In this document: piece after piece, positions 7,772-19,726 of the stretch | How the letters are laid out: every line of letters begins with the position of its first letter | Position numbering within the stretch: position 1 is the stretch's first letter | From: Candidatus Magnetaquicoccus inordinatus | GTDB taxonomy: Bacteria; Pseudomonadota; Magnetococcia; Magnetococcales; Magnetaquicoccaceae | Assembly (NCBI RefSeq): GCF_004217665.1 | Contig: NZ_RXIU01000009.1 | Location: 1 to 40,375 of the forward strand | Length of the DNA: 40,375 nucleotides | Reading direction: 5' to 3' | The notes under the pieces: model-generated | Seen by the model: only the letters and a program-made list of their open reading frames with translations | Database searches by the model: none | What the model was told of the DNA's origin: nothing | Made by a program: the position numbers and the translations under genes

Positions 7772-8674
7772 ATGGAAGAGTTGCCAGTTGCTGCGGCAGG
7801 AGTGGAGCCGTCATCTTCTGCCACAGTAGGATCGGCACAGTTGCAAGTAGCCGATGTAGGTGTTGAACGATTCAATAACGACCATCAGCGGCTGCTTTTT
7901 TATATTGTCGAGTTCAGTCGTTTGGCAGAGCGTTTTCGGCACCAACAGCCGATTGATGAGGAGTGGGATCCCATCGATGCCATTTTTCCCCGTCTGGAAA
8001 AATATACACAAGAACATTTCCAGGCCGAAGAGGAGTTGATGCGGCAACATGACTATCCTCTGTTGACGCGGCATATTGCTCAGCATCAAGAGCTGACAGG
8101 TCATCTGCAACAGCTCAAGGAGAGCGTGACCACCCGGCATGTCGAGGCGATTGCTGCCTTGGAGTCCTTTTTGTTCGATTGGCTCACCACCCATATCAAC
8201 CAGGATGATCGCCAATATCGGGGCTGTTTTCAACTGGCTGAGAGCAGACAGATTACCGAAAAGGCTCTCTTCAATGAGATGATCTCAGCCGAACAACTCA
8301 AGCGCATCATCGAGCTGTCCGCCAGCAACGCTGTATTGCTTGATTTGCGTACCGTCAGCGAACAGGAGGAGGGGATTATTCCTGGTTCACAACTCTATCC
8401 CTGTGCCCACAATCTGCTTAACCGACAAGATACCGAACCTTTTCGCCGCTCTTTTTCTGCCCGTTTTGCCCCAGAGCAGTTTGACAGTGAACAGTGGTAT
8501 ATATTGATCTGTCGCTCAGGACCACGGGCAGCGATTGCTTTGGAAGCCTTTCAGGAACATGATCTGCCCGCTTGCGAATTGATCGGCGGCATTCAGGAGT
8601 GGTTGCGTCAGGGATTCTCTTTGGTCGATCGTGAGCAGGCGCTGGCGGAGGCGGAGCACAGCACTCCTGTTTAA
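7772..8674 (+). CDS. Bacteriohemerythrin-rhodanese fusion protein
   Basis: The start ATG follows a good ribosome site (AAGGAG at about 7759). Residues 25-155 are a hemerythrin four-helix bundle with every di-iron ligand in place: His38, His82, Glu86, His101, His105, His141 and Asp146. Residues about 170-290 are a rhodanese domain with active-site loop CRSGPRA, the catalytic cysteine being Cys247. There is no signal peptide or membrane segment, so it acts in the cytosol. Hemerythrins bind O2 (some NO), and rhodanese domains carry persulfide sulfur; the fusion suggests O2- or NO-linked sulfur transfer, which is inference. It is 35 bp downstream of the secretion operon on the same strand but has its own strong ribosome site. 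A hairpin follows its stop. Confidence 0.88.
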   Translation: MEELPVAAAGVEPSSSATVGSAQLQVADVGVERFNNDHQRLLFYIVEFSRLAERFRHQQPIDEEWDPIDAIFPRLEKYTQEHFQAEEELMRQHDYPLLTRHIAQHQELTGHLQQLKESVTTRHVEAIAALESFLFDWLTTHINQDDRQYRGCFQLAESRQITEKALFNEMISAEQLKRIIELSASNAVLLDLRTVSEQEEGIIPGSQLYPCAHNLLNRQDTEPFRRSFSARFAPEQFDSEQWYILICRSGPRAAIALEAFQEHDLPACELIGGIQEWLRQGFSLVDREQALAEAEHSTPV

Positions 8675-8737: not shown

Positions 8738-9094
8738 TTATGATGCTTGCGATTTTACCTGATCAACCATCTCATGCACATTCTTTTCGATGAACTCATT
8801 GACTTCGGCTTGGCTGCGGCTCAATAGATCCAGGGTCTGACGCGCATTGTCGACAATCAACTGACCCATCTCTGCCACCATACCGGCTTGCGCTTGCGCC
8901 ACATCTTCCACTGTCTTCAATCCTGCCAGGCTGTTGATCTGACCAGAACCTGCTTTGACCAGAGTTTCGGCATTGTTGAGCTGGCGTTCGGCCAATTCTT
9001 TCATGATCCGCTCGTTGATTTTTTGCAAACCAGTCAAAGTATTCAACATTTTGCTGTTTGCTTCCATGATCTGTTTGGCAAGATTTCCGTCCAT
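8738..9094 (-). CDS. Phasin family protein (PHA granule-associated)
   Basis: This is a 118-residue, all-helical, amphipathic protein with no cysteine, no signal peptide and no membrane segment. The pattern (AKQIMEANSKMLNTLTGLQK, then ERQLNNAETL, then VAQAQAGMVAEM and LSRSQAEVNEFIEKN) matches phasins. These coat polyhydroxyalkanoate granules and limit their coalescence. The start ATG at 9094 has AAGGGG upstream. A sigma70-like promoter and a 5' stem-loop lie just ahead. No PHA synthase or depolymerase is in the window, so the link to PHA storage rests on the family. Confidence 0.8.
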   Translation of the reverse strand: MDGNLAKQIMEANSKMLNTLTGLQKINERIMKELAERQLNNAETLVKAGSGQINSLAGLKTVEDVAQAQAGMVAEMGQLIVDNARQTLDLLSRSQAEVNEFIEKNVHEMVDQVKSQAS

Positions 9095-11045: not shown

Positions 11046-11385
11046 GGTATTGTTTATACTCCTGAATAGTTAATGAATATTGGCAGGGTAACACTATCTC
11101 CTCTCTTTTGCCAAGAGTCCGCTGTTTGATTTTGGTGAGACAGGTCGTTGTTATTGTGTTGTTATCAATATTTTGTATCGATGAATAAATCTGGTAAATG
11201 AAACAAAAAACCTACACAGAAAGCGCGATGGCTCATCGCCAAAGGAGTTGGCGCGAAAATTTACAATTTTTTTATATCTGCTTGATCAAAATTTTATAAC
11301 TGTATGATATTCATTACCAAATTCGCCAAGAATGTCGAGAGCTGCTCTCAACAAGACAACCAAGCCTACCCATAAAGGAATAATC
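11046..11385. promoter_or_regulatory. Divergent intergenic control region, pepF/pstS
   Basis: This is 340 bp of AT-rich DNA between divergent genes. Toward pstS there is a weak promoter candidate, TTGATC (11282-11287) and TATGAT (11303-11308), with a short 15-bp spacer. Upstream are two short perfect hairpins that share bases and so exclude one another: GCGATG/CATCGC (11225-11230 with 11234-11239) and CGCCAA/TTGGCG (11237-11242 with 11248-11253). The second carries AGGAG in its loop and is followed by a T7 run near 11268. I could not find a convincing Pho box (two CTGTCAT-like half-sites) although one is expected ahead of pstS. A ribosome site AAAGGA sits 7 nt before the pstS ATG. Confidence 0.35.
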
Positions 11386-12255
11386 ATGAAAATGAAACCC
11401 ATCGCCACTATTGCCGCTGTTTCCCTGTTGAGCCTTGTTTCAACAGGGTGGTCTGCCTCCATGATTCAAAACAAAGGATCGGATACCTTGGTCAATGTGG
11501 CGCAGGCATTGGCCGAAGAGTATCAAAAGGTCAAGCCGGAAGTGGCGATTGCCGTCACAGGTGGTGGCAGCGGTACAGGCATTGCCGCGCTTCTCAATGG
11601 CACTGTGGATATTGCCAATTCCAGCCGTCAGATTGAGCAAAAGGAGGTCAAGTTGGCAGAGAAGAATAACATTCATCCCAAAGAGTTGACCATCGGTTTT
11701 GATGCGCTGGGCGTCTTTGTGCACAAGAGCAATCCTTTGAAGGAGATCTCTCTGGCACAGTTGGCACGCATGTATGGCGATGGTGGTGATGTCAATAACT
11801 GGAAACAGTTGGGTGTCGAGGTTCCGGGTTGCAAAGGGCAAAAAATCATTCTGATCTCTCGGCAGAACAACTCGGGAACCTACGAATATTTTCGTGAAGC
11901 GGTGCTGCATAAAAAGGATTTTATTATGGGTACCCGTGATATGCACGGATCCAAAGATGTGGTGGATTTAGTCGGCAAGACTCCTTGTGCAATTGGTTAC
12001 AGTGGTATGGCCTATGCCGACGAGACGACCAAGATGTTGGCAATCAAGAAAGAGGATAGCTCTGCAGCGGTTGTTCCCAGCATGGAGACAGCAGTTGATA
12101 AAACCTATCCCATTGCCCGGCCACTGTTCATGTATACCAATGGCGAGCCGACCGGTGAAATTAAAGCCTATCTGGATTGGATCATGGCCAAAGATGGTCA
12201 ATGTCTGGTGAGCAAGAAAGGGTATGCCCCAGCCAAACCTGTTCCTTGCAAATAA
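11386..12255 (+). CDS. pstS: PstS, periplasmic phosphate-binding protein
   Basis: ATG 11386 is chosen over an in-frame ATG at 11332 because it has AAAGGA just upstream and begins a clear Sec signal peptide (MKMKPIATIAAVSLLSLVS, cut after GWSA). The mature protein has the phosphate-binding loops GGGSGTGI and SRQNNSGTYEYF, plus DIANSSRQI, all typical of PstS. At 289 residues it is shorter than E. coli PstS (about 346) and close to the short PstS class. It captures phosphate for the PstCA-PstB transporter encoded immediately downstream and, in well-studied species, supports PhoR signalling. It is the first gene of the pst-pho operon. Confidence 0.95.
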   Translation: MKMKPIATIAAVSLLSLVSTGWSASMIQNKGSDTLVNVAQALAEEYQKVKPEVAIAVTGGGSGTGIAALLNGTVDIANSSRQIEQKEVKLAEKNNIHPKELTIGFDALGVFVHKSNPLKEISLAQLARMYGDGGDVNNWKQLGVEVPGCKGQKIILISRQNNSGTYEYFREAVLHKKDFIMGTRDMHGSKDVVDLVGKTPCAIGYSGMAYADETTKMLAIKKEDSSAAVVPSMETAVDKTYPIARPLFMYTNGEPTGEIKAYLDWIMAKDGQCLVSKKGYAPAKPVPCK

Positions 12256-12328: not shown

Positions 12329-13426
12329 ATGCCTATTTATGAGGAAAAGCTGCAAAAAGATGTTACAGCGATCAAGGAGGAGGTGGTCAAGCTGGGGGGA
12401 ATGGTGGGTCAGGCGCTGACCGACAGCCTCACCGCATTATTCACGGGTGATGAAAAACTGGCCAACATGACCGTGCTGCGTGATTTTCCCATCAATCGAC
12501 AATGCGCACGTCTCAACAAGCAATGTCACAATTTTATTGTTCGCCATCTGCCCAGCGCGGGACATCTGCGCATGGTCACCTCGGTGATTCAGATGGTCAT
12601 GGAGTTGGAGCGGATGGGCGATTATGCCCGAACCATCTCCAGAGAGGCCATTCATCTGCACCAGCCTCCAGAGGGCAATATTCTGCGCGATTTGAAAATA
12701 ATGGCTGAACATACGCAGGCCATTTTGCGGCAAAGCATGAGCGCTTTTGCTACGGAAGATGTGGAATTGGCGCGTTCGACATTGAAAGATTCCAGTCAGG
12801 TAAGCGTTGACCTCAACGTCATTCTCAACGATCTGGTCACTTTTTGTGGGCAGGAGGGGGGACGTGAGGTGGCCATGCGGATGCTCGATCTGCAAACCAT
12901 ATCCTACATGCTGGAACGTGTGGGAAATCGGGCGGCCAATGTCTGCGAGGAGATTCTTTTTATCCTGGCAGGTGAGACCGTTCCGCAGCGTATTCATGAG
13001 ATCCTCTTTTTGGATGCCGACAACTCCATTTTGGCGCCAATGGCAGAGGTGATTGCGCGTAAAGGATATAGTGAGCAAGCACGTTTTCGCAGTGCTGCCT
13101 GGCAACCGGCTGCTGAATGCAGTTCGGCCATGGTCGATTTTATGCGCCACCACGGTTTTAACATGCAGAACATTGCTCCCAAAAATCTGCAACAGATCAT
13201 TCCAGAGTTGGGAGGGGTACATATCATAATTGGTCTGAACAGTCCGGTCGGGCAAAATGGGCTGGAGGTTCCTTTTCATACGGTTGCTTTGGAATGGGAT
13301 GTGGGTCCGCTTCCTGGTGGTAATGCTCTTGGTGAAAATGCCGGACGTTTTGAGGAGATCTACCGTACCCTGGTGGCCAATCTTGCCCAGTTGATGGAAC
13401 TGCTCAACGGCGAAGAAGGGGTGTAA
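12329..13426 (+). CDS. phoU: PhoU fused to a catalytically dead LMW-phosphatase-like domain
   Basis: Residues 1-215 are a standard PhoU with its two three-helix bundles and metal-binding E/D-rich motifs (VMELERMGDYARTI and YMLERVGNRAANVCEEI). Residues about 222-320 follow the low-molecular-weight tyrosine phosphatase/ArsC fold: EILFLDADNSILAPMAEVIA lines up with the P-loop region FVCxxNxxRSPMAE, followed by FRSAAW (SAG strand) and GGVHIIIGL. In the P-loop CX5R the nucleophile cysteine is Asp229 and the arginine is Leu235, so no phosphatase activity is expected. A C-terminal helix follows to 365. PhoU couples the Pst transporter to PhoR; the extra domain may be a protein- or phosphate-sensing module. 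GGAG precedes the ATG. The gene is second in the operon, where phoU is usually last. Confidence 0.9.
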   Translation: MPIYEEKLQKDVTAIKEEVVKLGGMVGQALTDSLTALFTGDEKLANMTVLRDFPINRQCARLNKQCHNFIVRHLPSAGHLRMVTSVIQMVMELERMGDYARTISREAIHLHQPPEGNILRDLKIMAEHTQAILRQSMSAFATEDVELARSTLKDSSQVSVDLNVILNDLVTFCGQEGGREVAMRMLDLQTISYMLERVGNRAANVCEEILFILAGETVPQRIHEILFLDADNSILAPMAEVIARKGYSEQARFRSAAWQPAAECSSAMVDFMRHHGFNMQNIAPKNLQQIIPELGGVHIIIGLNSPVGQNGLEVPFHTVALEWDVGPLPGGNALGENAGRFEEIYRTLVANLAQLMELLNGEEGV

Positions 13427-13427
13427 G

Positions 13428-14360
13428 ATGAGCATTCCATTAGAGAAAGCAAGTACGCTGGTCGCCGCAGGGGATGTCCGCAATCGGGATTGGTATATCG
13501 ACAAACTGTTTCACAGTTTCATGTTTATCTGTGGAATATCGGCAGTCATTTTTGTGTTGGGAATCTTTGTCTTTGTTTTCAAGGAGGGTTCTGGTTTTAT
13601 CATTCATCAACTGGATTGGGCAGAGTTTTTTCTCTCTCCCAAATGGCGCCCCACCTCTGCCATTCAGGCCAGCTATGGCACGCTGGCAATGGTGGCGGGA
13701 ACGGCAGCGGTGACACTGATTTCCATGGCAGTAGCGCTGCCCTTCTCCTTTGGTGCCGCTATTTTTATCGCTGAGTTTGCCCGTGGCAAAACCCGCGAGT
13801 GGTTGAAAGTGGTGATTGAATTGTTGGCCGCTATTCCATCGGTGGTTTGGGGGTTTATCGGTCTGATGATCATGAATCCGTTGATTATCGATATCTTCGA
13901 TGTACCTATCGGCCTGAATGTACTCAATTCTGGAATTATTCTGGGCTTGATGGCTGCTCCCATCATTACCTCTATAGCCGAGGATGCTTTCAAGGCGGTG
14001 CCAGATACCTATCGCGAAGCGGCAGAAGCTCTGGGCGCCACCAAATGGCAGGTGATCTACAAAGTGGTGTTGCCCGCAGCAAAAAATGGTTTGCTTTCTG
14101 CCGCTTTGTTGGGTGTGGGACGGGCATTTGGGGAAACCATGGCGGTCTTGATGGCCAGTGGTCACGCTTTGACCATTCCTGGCAGTGTCTTTGATTCCAT
14201 TCGTGCCTTGACGGCAACCATTGCCGCTGAATTGGGTGAAACTCCGGTAGGATCAGACCATTATCAGGCTCTGTTTGCTATCGGTATCTTTCTCTTCAGC
14301 ATAACTTTCATCATCAACATGACCGCCGACCTGATCGTGCGGGGGATCAAGAACCAGTGA
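13428..14360 (+). CDS. pstC: PstC, phosphate ABC transporter permease
   Basis: This is an inner-membrane protein of 310 residues with about six membrane segments. The binding-protein-dependent permease motif EAAEALGATKWQVIYKVVLP lies near 200, and further family signatures are ELLAAIPSVVWGFIGL and GVGRAFGETMAVLMASG. It pairs with PstA to form the phosphate channel, and the EAA loop contacts a PstB subunit. The start is one base after the phoU stop, so the two are probably translationally coupled. It overlaps pstA if the GTG start of that gene is used. Confidence 0.95.
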   Translation: MSIPLEKASTLVAAGDVRNRDWYIDKLFHSFMFICGISAVIFVLGIFVFVFKEGSGFIIHQLDWAEFFLSPKWRPTSAIQASYGTLAMVAGTAAVTLISMAVALPFSFGAAIFIAEFARGKTREWLKVVIELLAAIPSVVWGFIGLMIMNPLIIDIFDVPIGLNVLNSGIILGLMAAPIITSIAEDAFKAVPDTYREAAEALGATKWQVIYKVVLPAAKNGLLSAALLGVGRAFGETMAVLMASGHALTIPGSVFDSIRALTATIAAELGETPVGSDHYQALFAIGIFLFSITFIINMTADLIVRGIKNQ

Positions 14361-14368
14361 GAACCGCC

Positions 14369-15271
14369 ATGAATCAAACTGCAACCCATACATCCACTCG
14401 CTTTCAGGCTGAACCGATCAACCTCAAAAATATTCAGGTGCAAAAGCTGTTCATGATTCTGTTTGGTCTGATGGCTGCGGTTTTGGTCATTCCGGTCATT
14501 CTGATTATTTTCACTCTGCTCCAGAAGGGTGGTAGCGCCATCAGTTGGGAGTTTTTGACCACCTTTCCCAGCAATGGCATGACAGCGGGCGGTATTCTGC
14601 CGGCACTGTTGGGTACCGTATGGTTGGTGGCCATCTCCTTGTTGGCCTCGGTGCCACTGGGAGTGGCGGCAGCCATTTATCTGAGTGAATATGCGCCACA
14701 GGATCATTGGCTGACCAGGGTGATCAACCTGGCAACCATCAATCTGGCTGGTGTGCCCTCCATCGTCCATGCTCTTTTTGGTCTGGGCGCTTTTGTGGCC
14801 TTTTTTCACCTTGGCACCAGTATTCTGGCTGCCAGTCTGACTCTGGCAGTCATGACCTTGCCGGTAGTGATTGTCGCTTCCTGGGAGTCGTTGCAATCGG
14901 TTCCTTTTGCCTTTCGAGAAGCCTGCTGGAATATGGGGGCGACTCGTTGGCAAACCATCTGGCATGTGGTGCTGCCCAATGCGCTGACCGGTATTCTTAC
15001 CGGCATTATTTTACAGGTTTCTCGCGCAGCAGGCGAAACAGCTCCCATCATGTTTACTGGGGCAGCATTCTTTTTACCCTTTCTGCCCTCCAGTGTGATG
15101 GATCAAACCATGGCTCTGGCGTTACATCTGTTCACCATTTCCACTCAGGTGCCCGGTGTTCCAGAGCAGATTCCGTTTGGGGTCGCTCTGGTGCTTTTCG
15201 GTATCGTCTTGATCATCAACACCTGTTCCATCTGGTTGCGCATGTATCTGCGCAGCAAGAAAAAATGGTAA
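14369..15271 (+). CDS. pstA: PstA, phosphate ABC transporter permease
   Basis: The product has about 300 residues with six predicted membrane segments. It carries the EAA motif FREACWNMGATRWQTIWHVVLP and PstA landmarks PLGVAAAIYLSEYAP and QVSRAAGETAPIMFTGAAFF. ATG 14369 is preferred because GTGAG lies 8 nt upstream; a GTG at 14357 would overlap the pstC stop as GTGA and add four residues. With PstC it forms the membrane path for phosphate. Its EAA loop should contact one of the two different ATPases encoded next. Confidence 0.93.
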   Translation: MNQTATHTSTRFQAEPINLKNIQVQKLFMILFGLMAAVLVIPVILIIFTLLQKGGSAISWEFLTTFPSNGMTAGGILPALLGTVWLVAISLLASVPLGVAAAIYLSEYAPQDHWLTRVINLATINLAGVPSIVHALFGLGAFVAFFHLGTSILAASLTLAVMTLPVVIVASWESLQSVPFAFREACWNMGATRWQTIWHVVLPNALTGILTGIILQVSRAAGETAPIMFTGAAFFLPFLPSSVMDQTMALALHLFTISTQVPGVPEQIPFGVALVLFGIVLIINTCSIWLRMYLRSKKKW

Positions 15272-15309: not shown

Positions 15310-16170
15310 ATGAACAGCCATTCTGATCCACATACCGATTCTGGAGCCACACGAGCAACCACTCCAGCAGCAACCAGCCCAAAAGAGCGTCTGGAGCGCT
15401 CTGCAGCGACGCAACCAGCCCATAAAATTTCCATTCGTGATCTGAGCATCCGCTATGGCCCATTTACGGCTCTATCCGGGGTCAACCTGGACATACCGGT
15501 CAATCAGATTTTTGGCATCATCGGACCGGCCAACAGCGGTAAAACCTCTTTTCTGAATGCCATCAACCGCATGGATATGATGCGCGCCAACATGAATGTG
15601 CAAGGCTCAGTCCTTTTTAACGGCGTCGATGTCACTTCCTGGGGAAATGTCTATGCCCTGCGCAGCAAGATTGGTGTGGTTTTTCCTCTGCCAGTAGGTT
15701 TACCCCTCTCCATCTATGACAATGTTGCTCTTTCACCACGTTTGCGTGGGATCAATAATAAGAGTCAAATTGATGAAATTGTTGAGAGATCATTGAAGAG
15801 AGCCGCTTTGTGGGACGAGGTAAAAGAGCGGCTAGGCTCACTGGGCAGCCTGTTATCGGGAGGGCAGCAACAGCGACTGACCATCGCCCGGGCTCTGTCC
15901 CAGGATCCTGAAGTGCTCATGCTGGATGAATTTTCCATTGCCGTGGATCCGGTGACCACCATGCGGATTGAAGATGTGTTAAAGGAGTTGAAAAACCAGA
16001 TGACCATCATTTTGGTGACCAATCTGGTCCAGCAGGCCAATCGTTTGGCCGATCGAACCGCCTTTTTTCTCAATGGTTCCTGTGTCGAGGTCGGCGATAC
16101 CGATGCCCTTTTCAACGGCAAAGTCCGTGACCAACGTACCGATGACTATATCAATGGCCGTTTCGGCTAG
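15310..16170 (+). CDS. pstB: PstB1, phosphate ABC ATPase with degenerate Q- and H-loops
   Basis: The 286-residue product has a 38-residue low-complexity N-terminus rich in Ala, Thr and Ser, absent from ordinary PstB. Walker A (GPANSGKTS, 72-80), signature LSGGQ (182-186) and Walker B with its catalytic glutamate (LMLDE, Glu207) are intact. Two catalytic positions are not: the Q-loop glutamine is Pro126 (GVVFPLPVGLP against the usual GMVFQKPTPFP), and the switch histidine is Asn238 (ILVTNLVQQA against VTHNMQQA). The D-loop region is also changed (SIAVDP for SALDP). Its own ATP site should therefore be poor, but its signature can complete a partner's site. PstB2, 42 bp downstream, has the opposite pattern, which points to an obligate heterodimer. 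Confidence 0.92.
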   Translation: MNSHSDPHTDSGATRATTPAATSPKERLERSAATQPAHKISIRDLSIRYGPFTALSGVNLDIPVNQIFGIIGPANSGKTSFLNAINRMDMMRANMNVQGSVLFNGVDVTSWGNVYALRSKIGVVFPLPVGLPLSIYDNVALSPRLRGINNKSQIDEIVERSLKRAALWDEVKERLGSLGSLLSGGQQQRLTIARALSQDPEVLMLDEFSIAVDPVTTMRIEDVLKELKNQMTIILVTNLVQQANRLADRTAFFLNGSCVEVGDTDALFNGKVRDQRTDDYINGRFG

Positions 16171-16212: not shown

Positions 16213-17004
16213 ATGAATAAGCAGGAAATTCAACAGGAAATCGCCATCAGAACCATCAATCTTAATTTGTGGTATGGTCACTTCCAAGCCTTGTTTGATG
16301 TCAATCTGGAGATTAAACAGGGGATTATTACGGCCATGATCGGCCCCAGCGGTTGTGGCAAATCCACCGTGTTGCGCAGCGTGGACCGCATCAACGAGCG
16401 TTTGGGATATGTGCGCATCACCGGGGCGATCAAGGTGCTTGACAAAAACATCTATGATCCCGATGTCAATCTTTCCCAATTGCGCAAGCAGGTTGGCATG
16501 GTCTTCCAACGTCCCAATCCTTTACCCATTTCCATCTATGACAATGTCATTTTTGGTCATCGTCTGCATCGTCCTCCAGATGTCAAACTCTCCTCTCGGC
16601 AGGAGGATGAGATTGTCGAAGCCGCTTTGCAGCGGGTATTGCTCTGGGACAAGGTCAAAGATAAACTGAAGAGAAAGGCAACGATCGATCTCTCATTGGA
16701 GGAGCGTCAAAAGCTCTGTATTGCCAGATTGCTGCCGGTTAAACCTGCAGTCTTGTTGATGGATGAGCCATGCTCTGCGCTCGATCCCAAAGGGACGGCT
16801 GCAGTCGAAGAGTTGATATGGGAGTTGCGTGGCGAATATTCCATTTTGTTGGTGACGCACAACATGGCGCAGGCACGGCGCACCAGCGATGAGTGCATTT
16901 TTATGCTCATGGGCAAGGTGGTAGAACATACCGATACCGATAAAATGTTTGTCACACCGCAGTATCGGGAAACCGCAGACTATATCGAAGGGCGTTATGG
17001 ATAA
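16213..17004 (+). CDS. pstB: PstB2, phosphate ABC ATPase with degenerate signature motif
   Basis: The product has 263 residues, the normal PstB length. Walker A GPSGCGKST (44-52), Q-loop Gln99 (GMVFQRPNPLP), Walker B MDEP with Glu185, D-loop SALDP and switch His216 (VTHNMAQA) are all canonical. The ABC signature is not: LSGGQQQRLCIAR has become LSLEERQKLCIAR (160-172), losing both glycines that cradle the gamma-phosphate. A PstB2 homodimer would have two sites lacking a signature. Paired with PstB1 it gives one fully canonical site (PstB2 Walker/Q/H plus PstB1 LSGGQ) and one doubly degenerate site. This reading is inferred from the motif pattern; ATPase family membership is certain. Confidence 0.93.
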   Translation: MNKQEIQQEIAIRTINLNLWYGHFQALFDVNLEIKQGIITAMIGPSGCGKSTVLRSVDRINERLGYVRITGAIKVLDKNIYDPDVNLSQLRKQVGMVFQRPNPLPISIYDNVIFGHRLHRPPDVKLSSRQEDEIVEAALQRVLLWDKVKDKLKRKATIDLSLEERQKLCIARLLPVKPAVLLMDEPCSALDPKGTAAVEELIWELRGEYSILLVTHNMAQARRTSDECIFMLMGKVVEHTDTDKMFVTPQYRETADYIEGRYG

Positions 17005-17156: not shown

Positions 17157-17225
17157 ATGCCGGAACAGTATGCCATCTCTAAAATCGTATCATGTCGGAA
17201 CAGCACACCATGTCTAAAATCGTAT
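17157..17225 (+). repeat. 35-bp-period direct duplication covering the phoB start
   Basis: Copy 1 (17157-17190) and copy 2 (17192-17225) agree at 29 of 34 positions. Copy 2 contains the first codons of phoB (ATG-TCG-GAA-CAG, then the internal ATG at 17210). Copy 1 also opens with ATG but is in another frame; it reads 23 codons (M-P-E-Q-Y-A-I-S-K-I-V...) and stops at a TGA inside the phoB coding start. The duplication is thus a recent event that made a leader-like overlapping mini-ORF. Confidence 0.75.
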
Positions 17226-17905
17226 TGATCGTTGATGATGAAAAAGATTTTGTCAAAGTCTTGGCCTTGAATCTGCGCAAGAACGATTATGCTGTGCGCC
17301 AAGCGCTAAACGGCAGTCAGGCATTGCTGGAAATGGCGCAAGCTTTATTGCCCGATTTGGTGCTGTTGGATCTTCAGTTGCCCGATATTTCCGGTCTGGA
17401 GTTGTGTCGGCGAATGCGCTCCGATCCCCGTACCCGTTCTGTCGCCATTCTGATGCTGACGGCCAAAGGGGAAGAGATTGATCGGGTTGTCGGTTTTGAG
17501 ATGGGTGCGGATGATTATATGGTCAAACCCTTCAGTATGCGTGAACTGATGTTGCGTATCCAAGCTCTGTTACGCCGAACAGCCCCAGATTTTGCCAGCA
17601 CCGCTCAGCAAGAGCTGCAATTTGGTTTGTTGCGCATGGATGTGGCTGCTTTTCGGGTCTGGTCGGCAGATCGCGAGGTACGTTTGACCACCATGGAGTT
17701 CAAACTGTTGGCGCTGCTTTTGGAGCGACGGGGCAGAGTGCAAACCAGAGAAGTTTTGATGAATGATGTGTGGGGTATTGATTCGTATGTACAAAGTCGA
17801 ACCGTGGATGTTCACATCGATCGATTGCGCAAAAAATTGGGGCAAGCGGAGCAGTATATTGAAACCGTACATGGGATGGGTTACCGTCTGCGAGCAGTAC
17901 CTTGA
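17192..17905 (+). CDS. phoB: PhoB, phosphate regulon response regulator (OmpR family)
   Basis: The protein has a receiver domain with acidic pocket VDDEKD, phosphoacceptor in LVLLDLQLPD (Asp60, or Asp54 from the second start), switch Thr in LMLTAKGEE and Lys in MVKPFSMREL. A C-terminal winged helix follows (RTVDVHIDRLRKKL and YIETVHGMGYRLRAVP). ATG 17192 gives 237 residues; ATG 17210 gives 231 and puts the phosphoacceptor at 54 exactly as in E. coli PhoB, so the shorter form is quite possible. Neither start has a clear Shine-Dalgarno site. Position between pst and a PhoR-type kinase supports the assignment. It should activate pst and other phosphate-starvation genes. Confidence 0.92.
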   Translation: MSEQHTMSKIVLIVDDEKDFVKVLALNLRKNDYAVRQALNGSQALLEMAQALLPDLVLLDLQLPDISGLELCRRMRSDPRTRSVAILMLTAKGEEIDRVVGFEMGADDYMVKPFSMRELMLRIQALLRRTAPDFASTAQQELQFGLLRMDVAAFRVWSADREVRLTTMEFKLLALLLERRGRVQTREVLMNDVWGIDSYVQSRTVDVHIDRLRKKLGQAEQYIETVHGMGYRLRAVP

Positions 17906-17965
17906 TGCAGATCAGCCTCGCTTTCATGACAAAGCCATTGTTGCGGCCATGAAATGGTTCCTGTT

Positions 17966-19726
17966 ATGAATAAAGGTATTAAAAACAGGCTTTTCTATTA
18001 TTTTCTCACCATCATCGTTGTGTCACTGGCAATCTGCGGCCTGATTATTGAGGAGATTGTGGAATCGGTCCGCATGGATCTGATTCGTAGCGATTTGCTG
18101 CGTCATCTGCAGAGCATGGAATGGATGGTGCAGGCTCTGCCCGCGCCGGTTGCCCCTGCAACCTATCAGGAGATGGCTGGCCAACTTGGCACTATCATGG
18201 CGATGCGGGTCACCTTTATTGATGGGGATGGATGGGTTGTAGGAGATTCATCGGTTGCAGCAGATCAGTTGCAAACCATCGAAAACCACCATAAACGGCC
18301 AGAAGTGGCGGAAGCACTGCTGCATGGTGTCGGCAGTGCCATACGCACCTCTACTACGGTCAATACCGATTTATATTATTTGGCCTATGCCATTGACCGG
18401 GGGGGGCAACGGATGATCATCCGTCTTGCTCGCTCGCTACATGATTTGCAAGAGGAGATTGCTTCATTACGTCGTTTGGTCATATATTCCGTTTTGTTTG
18501 CCACTCTTTTGGCTGCATTGCTGAGTCGTTTGGCTGCTCGTTTGTTTACCAGGCCTTTGCGTGCCTTGGTCAAACAGGCCAAATCTATTGCCGGTCAGCA
18601 GAGCAATAGCCGGTTGGTTACCGATTCCCAGGATGAGGTGGGTGGATTGGCCTCTTCGTTCAATCTGCTGCTTAACCAGTTGGAAGAGGTGATGGCTTCA
18701 GTCTCTTTGGAGCGGGATCGTCTCAAAATTATCCTGGAAGGGATTTTGGATGGTGTGATTGCTGTTGATCTGCGTGGCCAAATCATCCTGGTCAACCATG
18801 CGGTGATGGAGATCTTTGCTTTATCCTCCTCTCCGGTATCGCGTAATCTGTCAGAGTTGATTCCAGAGGAGCAGTTGCTGGGGTTGCTGCCGCCCAGTCA
18901 GGGTGCGGTCTGTCGAAGAGAGATCGTTCTGGCAGGGCGTGATATGCGACAGATATTGCTGACCAGTTCTTGCACAGCCAATGGCCAAGGTTGCATTCTT
19001 TTATTGCGTGATATTACTGAAAAAAATCGTCTGCAGCAGGTGCAAAGAGAGTTTATTGCCAGCGCTTCCCATGAATTGCGTACCCCAATCAGTATCATCC
19101 GTTTGAATGCAGAAACTTTGATGGATGGCAACAACGAGCCGGAAGAGGTAAATTTTTTGGTGGAGGCCATCTATCGCCAATCGCTGCGCATGTCGCAACT
19201 GATTGCGCATCTGTTGGATCTCTCTCGTTTGGAATCAGGAAGTTATCCTCTTCGTTGCCAGGAGTTTTTTTTGTTGCCACTCAGCAAACAGGTCAGTGAA
19301 TCATTGCACCATTGGATGGAAAGCCGGGAGATCGTGCTAAGCAATCAAATTGGGGCCGATGTCACCCTTTTTGCCGATCCCTCTGCTGTCGAACAGGTTT
19401 TGCTCAATCTGGTGGCCAATGCCATTCGCTATACACCTATGCGGAGCCAAATTATTTTGCGCAGCAGGCCACATCCTGATCATGACAAGAGCATGATCAT
19501 CGCTGTGGAGGATAATGGCGAAGGGATTGCCGAAGAGCATCATCGGCAACTGTTCAACCGTTTTTATCGTGTGGATCCTGGGCGTTCACGGGAGATGGGG
19601 GGGAGTGGTCTGGGTTTGGCGATTGTCAGACAGTTGGTGGAGGCGATGGGGGGGGAAGTGGGATTGTCTGCTGTGCAACCCAGTGGATGCTGTTTTTGGT
19701 TTACACTACCGGTTTGTCCGGCATGA
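17966..19726 (+). CDS. phoR: PhoR-type membrane sensor histidine kinase
   Basis: The product has 586 residues from ATG 17966 (a GTG at 17954 is in frame). Membrane segment 1 is at about 9-30. An extracytoplasmic domain of about 130 residues follows, then membrane segment 2 near 175-195 and a HAMP linker (LFTRPLRALVKQAKSIAGQQ). A PAS-like domain (ILEGILDGVIAVDLRGQIIL) leads to the HisKA motif ASASHELRTPISII with His369, and an HATPase with NLVANAIRYTP, EDNGEGIAEEH and GGSGLGLAIVRQLVEAMGG. The sizeable periplasmic domain distinguishes it from E. coli PhoR, which has almost none, and resembles PhoR of Bacillus type. It should phosphorylate PhoB and be restrained by the PhoU/Pst complex. Confidence 0.9.
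   Translation: MNKGIKNRLFYYFLTIIVVSLAICGLIIEEIVESVRMDLIRSDLLRHLQSMEWMVQALPAPVAPATYQEMAGQLGTIMAMRVTFIDGDGWVVGDSSVAADQLQTIENHHKRPEVAEALLHGVGSAIRTSTTVNTDLYYLAYAIDRGGQRMIIRLARSLHDLQEEIASLRRLVIYSVLFATLLAALLSRLAARLFTRPLRALVKQAKSIAGQQSNSRLVTDSQDEVGGLASSFNLLLNQLEEVMASVSLERDRLKIILEGILDGVIAVDLRGQIILVNHAVMEIFALSSSPVSRNLSELIPEEQLLGLLPPSQGAVCRREIVLAGRDMRQILLTSSCTANGQGCILLLRDITEKNRLQQVQREFIASASHELRTPISIIRLNAETLMDGNNEPEEVNFLVEAIYRQSLRMSQLIAHLLDLSRLESGSYPLRCQEFFLLPLSKQVSESLHHWMESREIVLSNQIGADVTLFADPSAVEQVLLNLVANAIRYTPMRSQIILRSRPHPDHDKSMIIAVEDNGEGIAEEHHRQLFNRFYRVDPGRSREMGGSGLGLAIVRQLVEAMGGEVGLSAVQPSGCCFWFTLPVCPA

Follow-up and report, generated by a model that had tools for sequence, protein, structure and literature searches.

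The present analysis of a 40,375-nucleotide stretch of the Candidatus Magnetaquicoccus inordinatus genome, in the following called the window, identified a pst operon in which PhoU is fused to a second domain that, judged by prediction and profile comparison, has the fold of ArsC-type arsenate reductases and LMW tyrosine phosphatases (LMWPTP), and in which two adjacent pstB genes show complementary motif losses. Both catalytic residues of the phosphatase fold are replaced in the additional domain, and none of its known homologues has an intact active site either. The reading that we favour, with a probability of roughly 0.55, is that the domain represents a pseudo-enzyme docking module, which couples PhoU to the asymmetric Pst importer and probably to PhoR. 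Collectively, our data point to a separate form of the machinery for phosphate uptake and sensing that had not been recognised before.

The fusion is encoded by a single frame of 365 codons at 12329-13426 on the forward strand, which is preceded in the operon by pstS and followed by pstC, pstA, pstB1, pstB2, phoB and phoR (Table 1); the order pstS, phoU-fusion, pstC, pstA, pstB1, pstB2 is fixed in every locus with enough flanking sequence. The original prediction that a complete PhoU precedes the extra domain was confirmed by the NCBIfam model phoU_full (TIGR02135), of which positions 2 to 211/212 are covered by residues 7-217 with 138.8 bits, above the curated cut-off of 130.25. Moreover, the full-length structure model matched the PhoU crystal structure 4q25_A in Foldseek (E 1.4e-8, TMt 0.92), in agreement with the all-helical PhoU fold; the relative placement of the PhoU and ArsC-like domains in this model is unreliable (pTM 0.60). 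In the window copy, the second PhoU repeat motif (residues 196-201) is LERVGN; its Asn replaces the Asp of most homologues. The kinase encoded downstream of phoB matches the WalK/PnpS models best and not proteobacterial PhoR. A search for Pho boxes gave nothing exceeding chance and no site 5' of pstS. Elsewhere in the window, the region 7772-8674 encodes a fusion of hemerythrin and rhodanese domains, and a phasin gene on the reverse strand (8738-9094) suggests polyhydroxyalkanoate granules.

Table 1. Features of the fusion-type pst operon, in window coordinates.
Feature	Position	Strand	Remarks
pstS, phosphate-binding protein	11332..12255	+	TIGR02136 238 bits, over cut-off
PhoU portion, residues 1-217 of the fusion	12329..12979	+	NCBIfam TIGR02135 138.8 bits; structural match to 4q25
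ArsC/LMWPTP-like pseudo-enzyme domain (predicted), residues ~222-360	12992..13408	+	AlphaFold2, Foldseek, hhalign; Pfam in 13/13 homologues
Asp229 codon, place of catalytic Cys	13013..13015	+	Asp in 66/67 homologues, Glu in 1
Leu235 codon, place of CX5R Arg	13031..13033	+	Arg in 1/67 homologues
HTVALEW, residues 317-323	13277..13297	+	His317 and Trp323 invariant, 67/67
pstC	13428..14360	+	TIGR02138 289 bits, over cut-off; begins 2 bases past the phoU stop codon
pstA, overlapping pstC	14357..15271	+	TIGR00974 258 bits, over cut-off
pstB1	15310..16170	+	LSGGQ intact; Q-loop Gln to Pro, H-loop His to Asn
pstB2	16213..17004	+	Q-loop, H-loop intact; LSGGQ to LSLEE (DNA at 16690-16733)
phoB-type response regulator	17192..17905	+	TIGR02154 247 bits, under the 296 cut-off
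phoR-type histidine kinase	17954..19726	+	Cache-like sensor region, HAMP, PAS, HisKA, HATPase

The second domain comprises about 140-145 residues. Residues 215-365 were modelled with AlphaFold2 using 13 homologues (pLDDT 85.7, pTM 0.82), and the top Foldseek matches of the predicted domain in the PDB were ArsC-type arsenate reductases (3rh0 with E 1.3e-8, 2cd7 with TM 0.73/0.83; best overall TM about 0.73/0.84), followed by LMW tyrosine phosphatases. Hence, the nearest fold neighbours of the modelled domain are arsenate reductases rather than tyrosine phosphatases. From the window protein alone, the LMWPTP reading is good but unproven, because its match to the Pfam model LMWPc (PF01451) stays below the cut-off of 23.2 bits, with 19.2 bits for the whole protein and 21.7 bits for the domain. 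The same model is matched by all 13 homologues (best 3.2e-8), and several relatives exceed the cut-off and span profile positions 1-144. Furthermore, hhalign aligned the domain profile over 134 columns with nine stand-alone ArsC-type enzymes of related genomes (E 1.1e-10), and a search of 399 proteobacterial genomes with this profile returned ordinary LMWPTPs down to E 7e-13 besides PhoU-fused frames with more than 100 bits. The structural search thus led to the proposed fold and to no unrelated one. The original prediction had recognised the LMW tyrosine phosphatase/ArsC pattern in residues 223-320; it was right about the fold, while the domain extends to about residue 360 and lies closer to ArsC than to the phosphatases. 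In another genome of the same genus, a stand-alone ArsC-type gene is located about 3 kb from a fusion operon (L047, G004:C76:56429-56836).

The replacement of the catalytic nucleophile by Asp229 and of the arginine by Leu235 had already been read from the window copy, and both codons were verified directly in the DNA. For conservation we compared 67 distinct full-length fusions, which stem from Magnetococcales, the Sedimenticola/Chromatiaceae order and Accumulibacter. None of them has CX5R at the P-loop; the lone homologue with Arg at position 235 carries Asp229 and hence also lacks the motif. The alternative that most homologues are intact and only this copy has decayed was therefore not borne out. 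Phe227 and Ala239 are invariant across the set, as are the two residues listed in Table 1. Compared with LFLCTGNSCRSQMAE of the genuine enzymes, the family consensus LFLDEDNSCLSQMAEAIAR is altered mainly in the catalytic Cys, the next two residues and the Arg, while the surroundings are kept. Neither the DP general-acid motif nor the ArsC redox cysteines are retained in the domain, which has a loop of the W-D-V-G-x-L-P type, and SLQ stands in place of the TVC strand of ArsC. In 99 usable pairs, the domain had a median dN/dS of 0.18, with a maximum of 0.39, compared with 0.11 in the PhoU half. Purifying selection acts on the domain. Given this selection, the nearly invariant Asp229 and the complete absence of CX5R, the loss of the active site does not represent local decay.

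The pstB1-pstB2 pair of the same operon may outweigh the fusion in importance. In PstB1, the Q-loop Gln is changed to Pro (VFPLP) and the H-loop His to Asn (VTN) with LSGGQ kept, which holds for 31/31 family members; in PstB2, LSGGQ is changed to LSLEE with Q and H kept, which holds for 32/32 members, plus one LSLEA variant. Both proteins stay below the TIGR00972 PstB equivalog cut-off of 343.2 bits (284 for PstB1 and 311 for PstB2), whereas canonical PstBs of related genomes score 382-402 bits, and those adjoining stand-alone PhoUs retain all motifs. In ABC ATPases, each composite site combines Walker A/B, Q and H of one subunit with the signature of the other (PMC7756269). Under this rule, the complementary losses argue for a heterodimer in which one ATP site should be of the consensus type and the other degenerate; the physical association of PstB1 with PstB2 is likewise suggested by the adjacency of their genes. 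The consensus site would be built from Walker A/B, Q and H of PstB2 with LSGGQ of PstB1, and the degenerate site from PstB1, which lacks Q and H, with LSLEE of PstB2.

Relatives of the fusion were found in Magnetococcales, in the order with Sedimenticola and Polarisedimenticolaceae, in one Chromatiaceae record and in Accumulibacter; one Magnetococcales record and a genome of the window's genus have an identical fusion sequence. The window genome has another pst operon with a full-length fusion of its own, 57% identical to the first. This second operon (L207, G000:C151) ends inside pstB2 at the contig end, and its PhoU has Glu instead of Asp at the position of the nucleophile. The original prediction had connected the fusion with the unusual pstB pair, and this connection holds in every complete fusion operon examined; the complementary degeneration of the pair makes it stronger than previously stated. 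In the phylum sample, 22 genomes have the fusion, 22 have LSLEE by motif search and 21 have both, and a reversed-pattern control of the LSLEE search gave no matches there. Among 195 genomes of the Sedimenticola order, the corresponding numbers were 47, 48 and 46. The counts thus come from two distant groups; they are not independent, because genomes within a group share ancestry. The fusion genomes without LSLEE comprise the LSLEA variant (G015) and a locus at a contig edge (G1033). Further irregular loci are an LSLEE motif at 109 bases from the start of its contig (G966), a truncated PstS-PstB2 remnant (G905) and a locus split by breakpoints in pstA and pstB1, due to rearrangement or misassembly (G998). 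The true exception is G023 with two pstS-C-A-B1-B2 operons of the asymmetric type (L141, L142) that lack phoU; no PhoU above the cut-off was found in this genome. Hence, the tie between fusion and pair is strong but one-directional, and the transporter is independent of PhoU. The earlier view of a rebuilt Pst signalling complex thus has good support at the level of a genetic unit with fixed gene order and co-occurring pair, with the tie running in one direction.

The fusion of the ArsC/LMWPTP domain to PhoU probably arose once. Since the support of the fusion clade in the rooted tree is low (0.46, possibly a rooting effect), the single origin rests on the shared architecture and the long branch. 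Around Accumulibacter the fusion is rare, in 1 of 250 genomes of the order sample and 4 of 200 of the family sample, which suggests that the cassette reached Accumulibacter by transfer. Accumulibacter is the classic polyphosphate accumulator and the main organism of biological phosphorus removal. Magnetococcaceae have been shown to hyperaccumulate phosphorus (PMC8786505). A link of the fusion to polyphosphate accumulation is only a lead, because the fusion is missing from many genomes of high completeness in the same order, including the single-contig 4.7 Mb genome G027.

How might the fused protein act? It has been shown for E. coli that PhoU contacts the PAS and CA domains of PhoR, and its binding to PstB looked weaker in the same study (PMC4423584), while PstB locked in differing conformations led to differing phosphate signals (PMC5775613). 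In the mechanism that we propose, the ArsC/LMWPTP domain would have been joined to the C-terminus of PhoU, probably once, its catalytic anion-binding P-loop (CTGNSCRS type) would have been rewritten into the acidic DEDNS(C/x)L loop, and the rewritten domain would then have been retained as a protein-interaction module. Most likely, this module docks PhoU in a single orientation onto the asymmetric transporter and/or PhoR. This would allow PhoU to read the state of a pump with two non-equivalent ATPase faces, or to hold it, and PhoU might relay phosphate sufficiency to PhoR-PhoB. The heterodimer, the docking and the direction of signalling are what we infer from the genomic evidence, and the same applies to a binding or sensing domain touching PhoR, PhoB or PstB, as already envisaged in the original prediction. 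More tentatively, and at somewhat less than even odds, the operon may stand for a class of degenerate-site ABC importers, in which an obligately asymmetric ATPase dimer, with one ATP site that never catalyses, is combined with a dead-ArsC PhoU regulator that reads or clamps the asymmetry, and which moved as one cassette between distant proteobacteria.

The main rival to docking is ligand sensing by the Asp-rich loop. The domain would then be a small-molecule or ion sensor that takes up a metal ion or another ligand, other than free phosphate via CX5R, in its acidic loop D-[EQ]-[DE]-N and signals to PhoU. The binding of phosphate itself at the former anion site is disfavoured, because the loop is acidic. 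It is true that the invariant Asp229, His317 and Trp323 might just as well belong to a site for a ligand or metal, and the conservation of Asp229 (one Glu), of Asp or Glu at position 231 (63/67) and of Asn at position 232 (61/67) is stricter than packing needs and extends to distant homologues. However, position 231, the second acid, is Gly or Arg in the remaining 4/67, and Foldseek gave ordinary enzymes and no ligand-bearing match of a new kind, so that we regard a sensor as rather unlikely, albeit worth keeping in mind. A new catalytic activity, with Asp229 as nucleophile or phospho-acceptor in the manner of the HAD motif DxD[NT] or of receiver domains, appears improbable. Such a re-purposed enzyme is brought to mind by the D-x-D after the first beta-strand, which resembles the first HAD motif and the acidic pairs of receivers, but the strand spacing is that of LMWPTP, and the fold topology places His317 at the opening of strand 4, at the sheet end opposite the P-loop. 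Moreover, none of the 13 homologues matched HAD or receiver models in Pfam, and neither type appeared in the Foldseek top 50. As direct assignments of the ILFLDEDN motif, the receiver (REC) and HAD readings were rejected on the basis of Pfam, Foldseek and strand spacing.

There is also a slim chance that the tail only insulates the fusion-type Pst system from a second, canonical one by steering the fused PhoU to its own transporter. The Accumulibacter and Polarisedimenticolaceae genomes checked indeed also have stand-alone PhoU and, where checked, canonical PstB, but the window genome, with its two operons of the fusion type, lacks a canonical PstB above the cut-off, hence there is nothing to insulate from. 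Finally, a functionless relic is extremely improbable, because the somewhat faster evolution of the domain than of the PhoU half is outweighed by invariant residues, conserved length and purifying selection in three bacterial groups, and decay of the catalytic site was rejected in view of the family-wide conservation together with dN/dS.

The fusion operon bears on a problem of wider interest. In E. coli, both ATP sites rely on one and the same PstB, and isolation of the complex was attempted without success (PMC4423584), and partly for these reasons it has long been an open question how PhoU reads the transporter and passes this on to PhoR. With its additional domain of the docking type and two ATPase faces that can be told apart, the fusion system makes this question testable, since each site, face and domain can be altered separately. 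The operon moreover appears to encode a degenerate-site ABC importer and occurs in the phosphorus-removing Accumulibacter.

Compared with known systems, the fusion shares with PhoU (TIGR02135; P. aeruginosa 4q25, A. aeolicus 1t72) the complete PhoU domain, the helical fold and the linkage to pstSCAB. It differs by about 145 additional residues forming the second domain, by the Asn in LERVGN of the window copy in place of Asp, and by the position of the gene, which follows pstS and precedes pstC rather than closing the operon. With the thioredoxin/mycothiol-type ArsC and the LMWPTP enzymes (PF01451), the second domain has in common the predicted fold and the N, S, SAG and Trp positions, and some fusions even keep the second P-loop Cys (NSC); in contrast to these enzymes it has Asp for the nucleophilic Cys, no CX5R Arg and no DP general-acid motif. 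Pseudophosphatases of the STYX type likewise have a phosphatase fold without catalysis; as a rule they retain the Arg and are able to bind phospho-residues, whereas the PhoU-fused domain has lost both Cys and Arg and gained an acid. The open-access literature searched contains no prior description of a PhoU-phosphatase fusion and describes degenerate sites only among ABC exporters. The tandem pstB1-pstB2 genes of Firmicutes, e.g. Enterococcus faecalis (PMC12096839), resemble the pair described here in being adjacent, unequal and part of a pst-phoU locus, while the motif losses in the pair of the fusion operon are complementary. The heterodimeric exporters TM287/288, BmrCD and TAP share with the proposed PstB heterodimer the combination of one consensus with one degenerate composite site, which is conserved in this form (PMC7756269). 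These exporters often have an altered Walker B Glu, whereas the PstB pair belongs to an importer and keeps the Glu, with the alterations located in the Q-loop, the H-loop and the signature.
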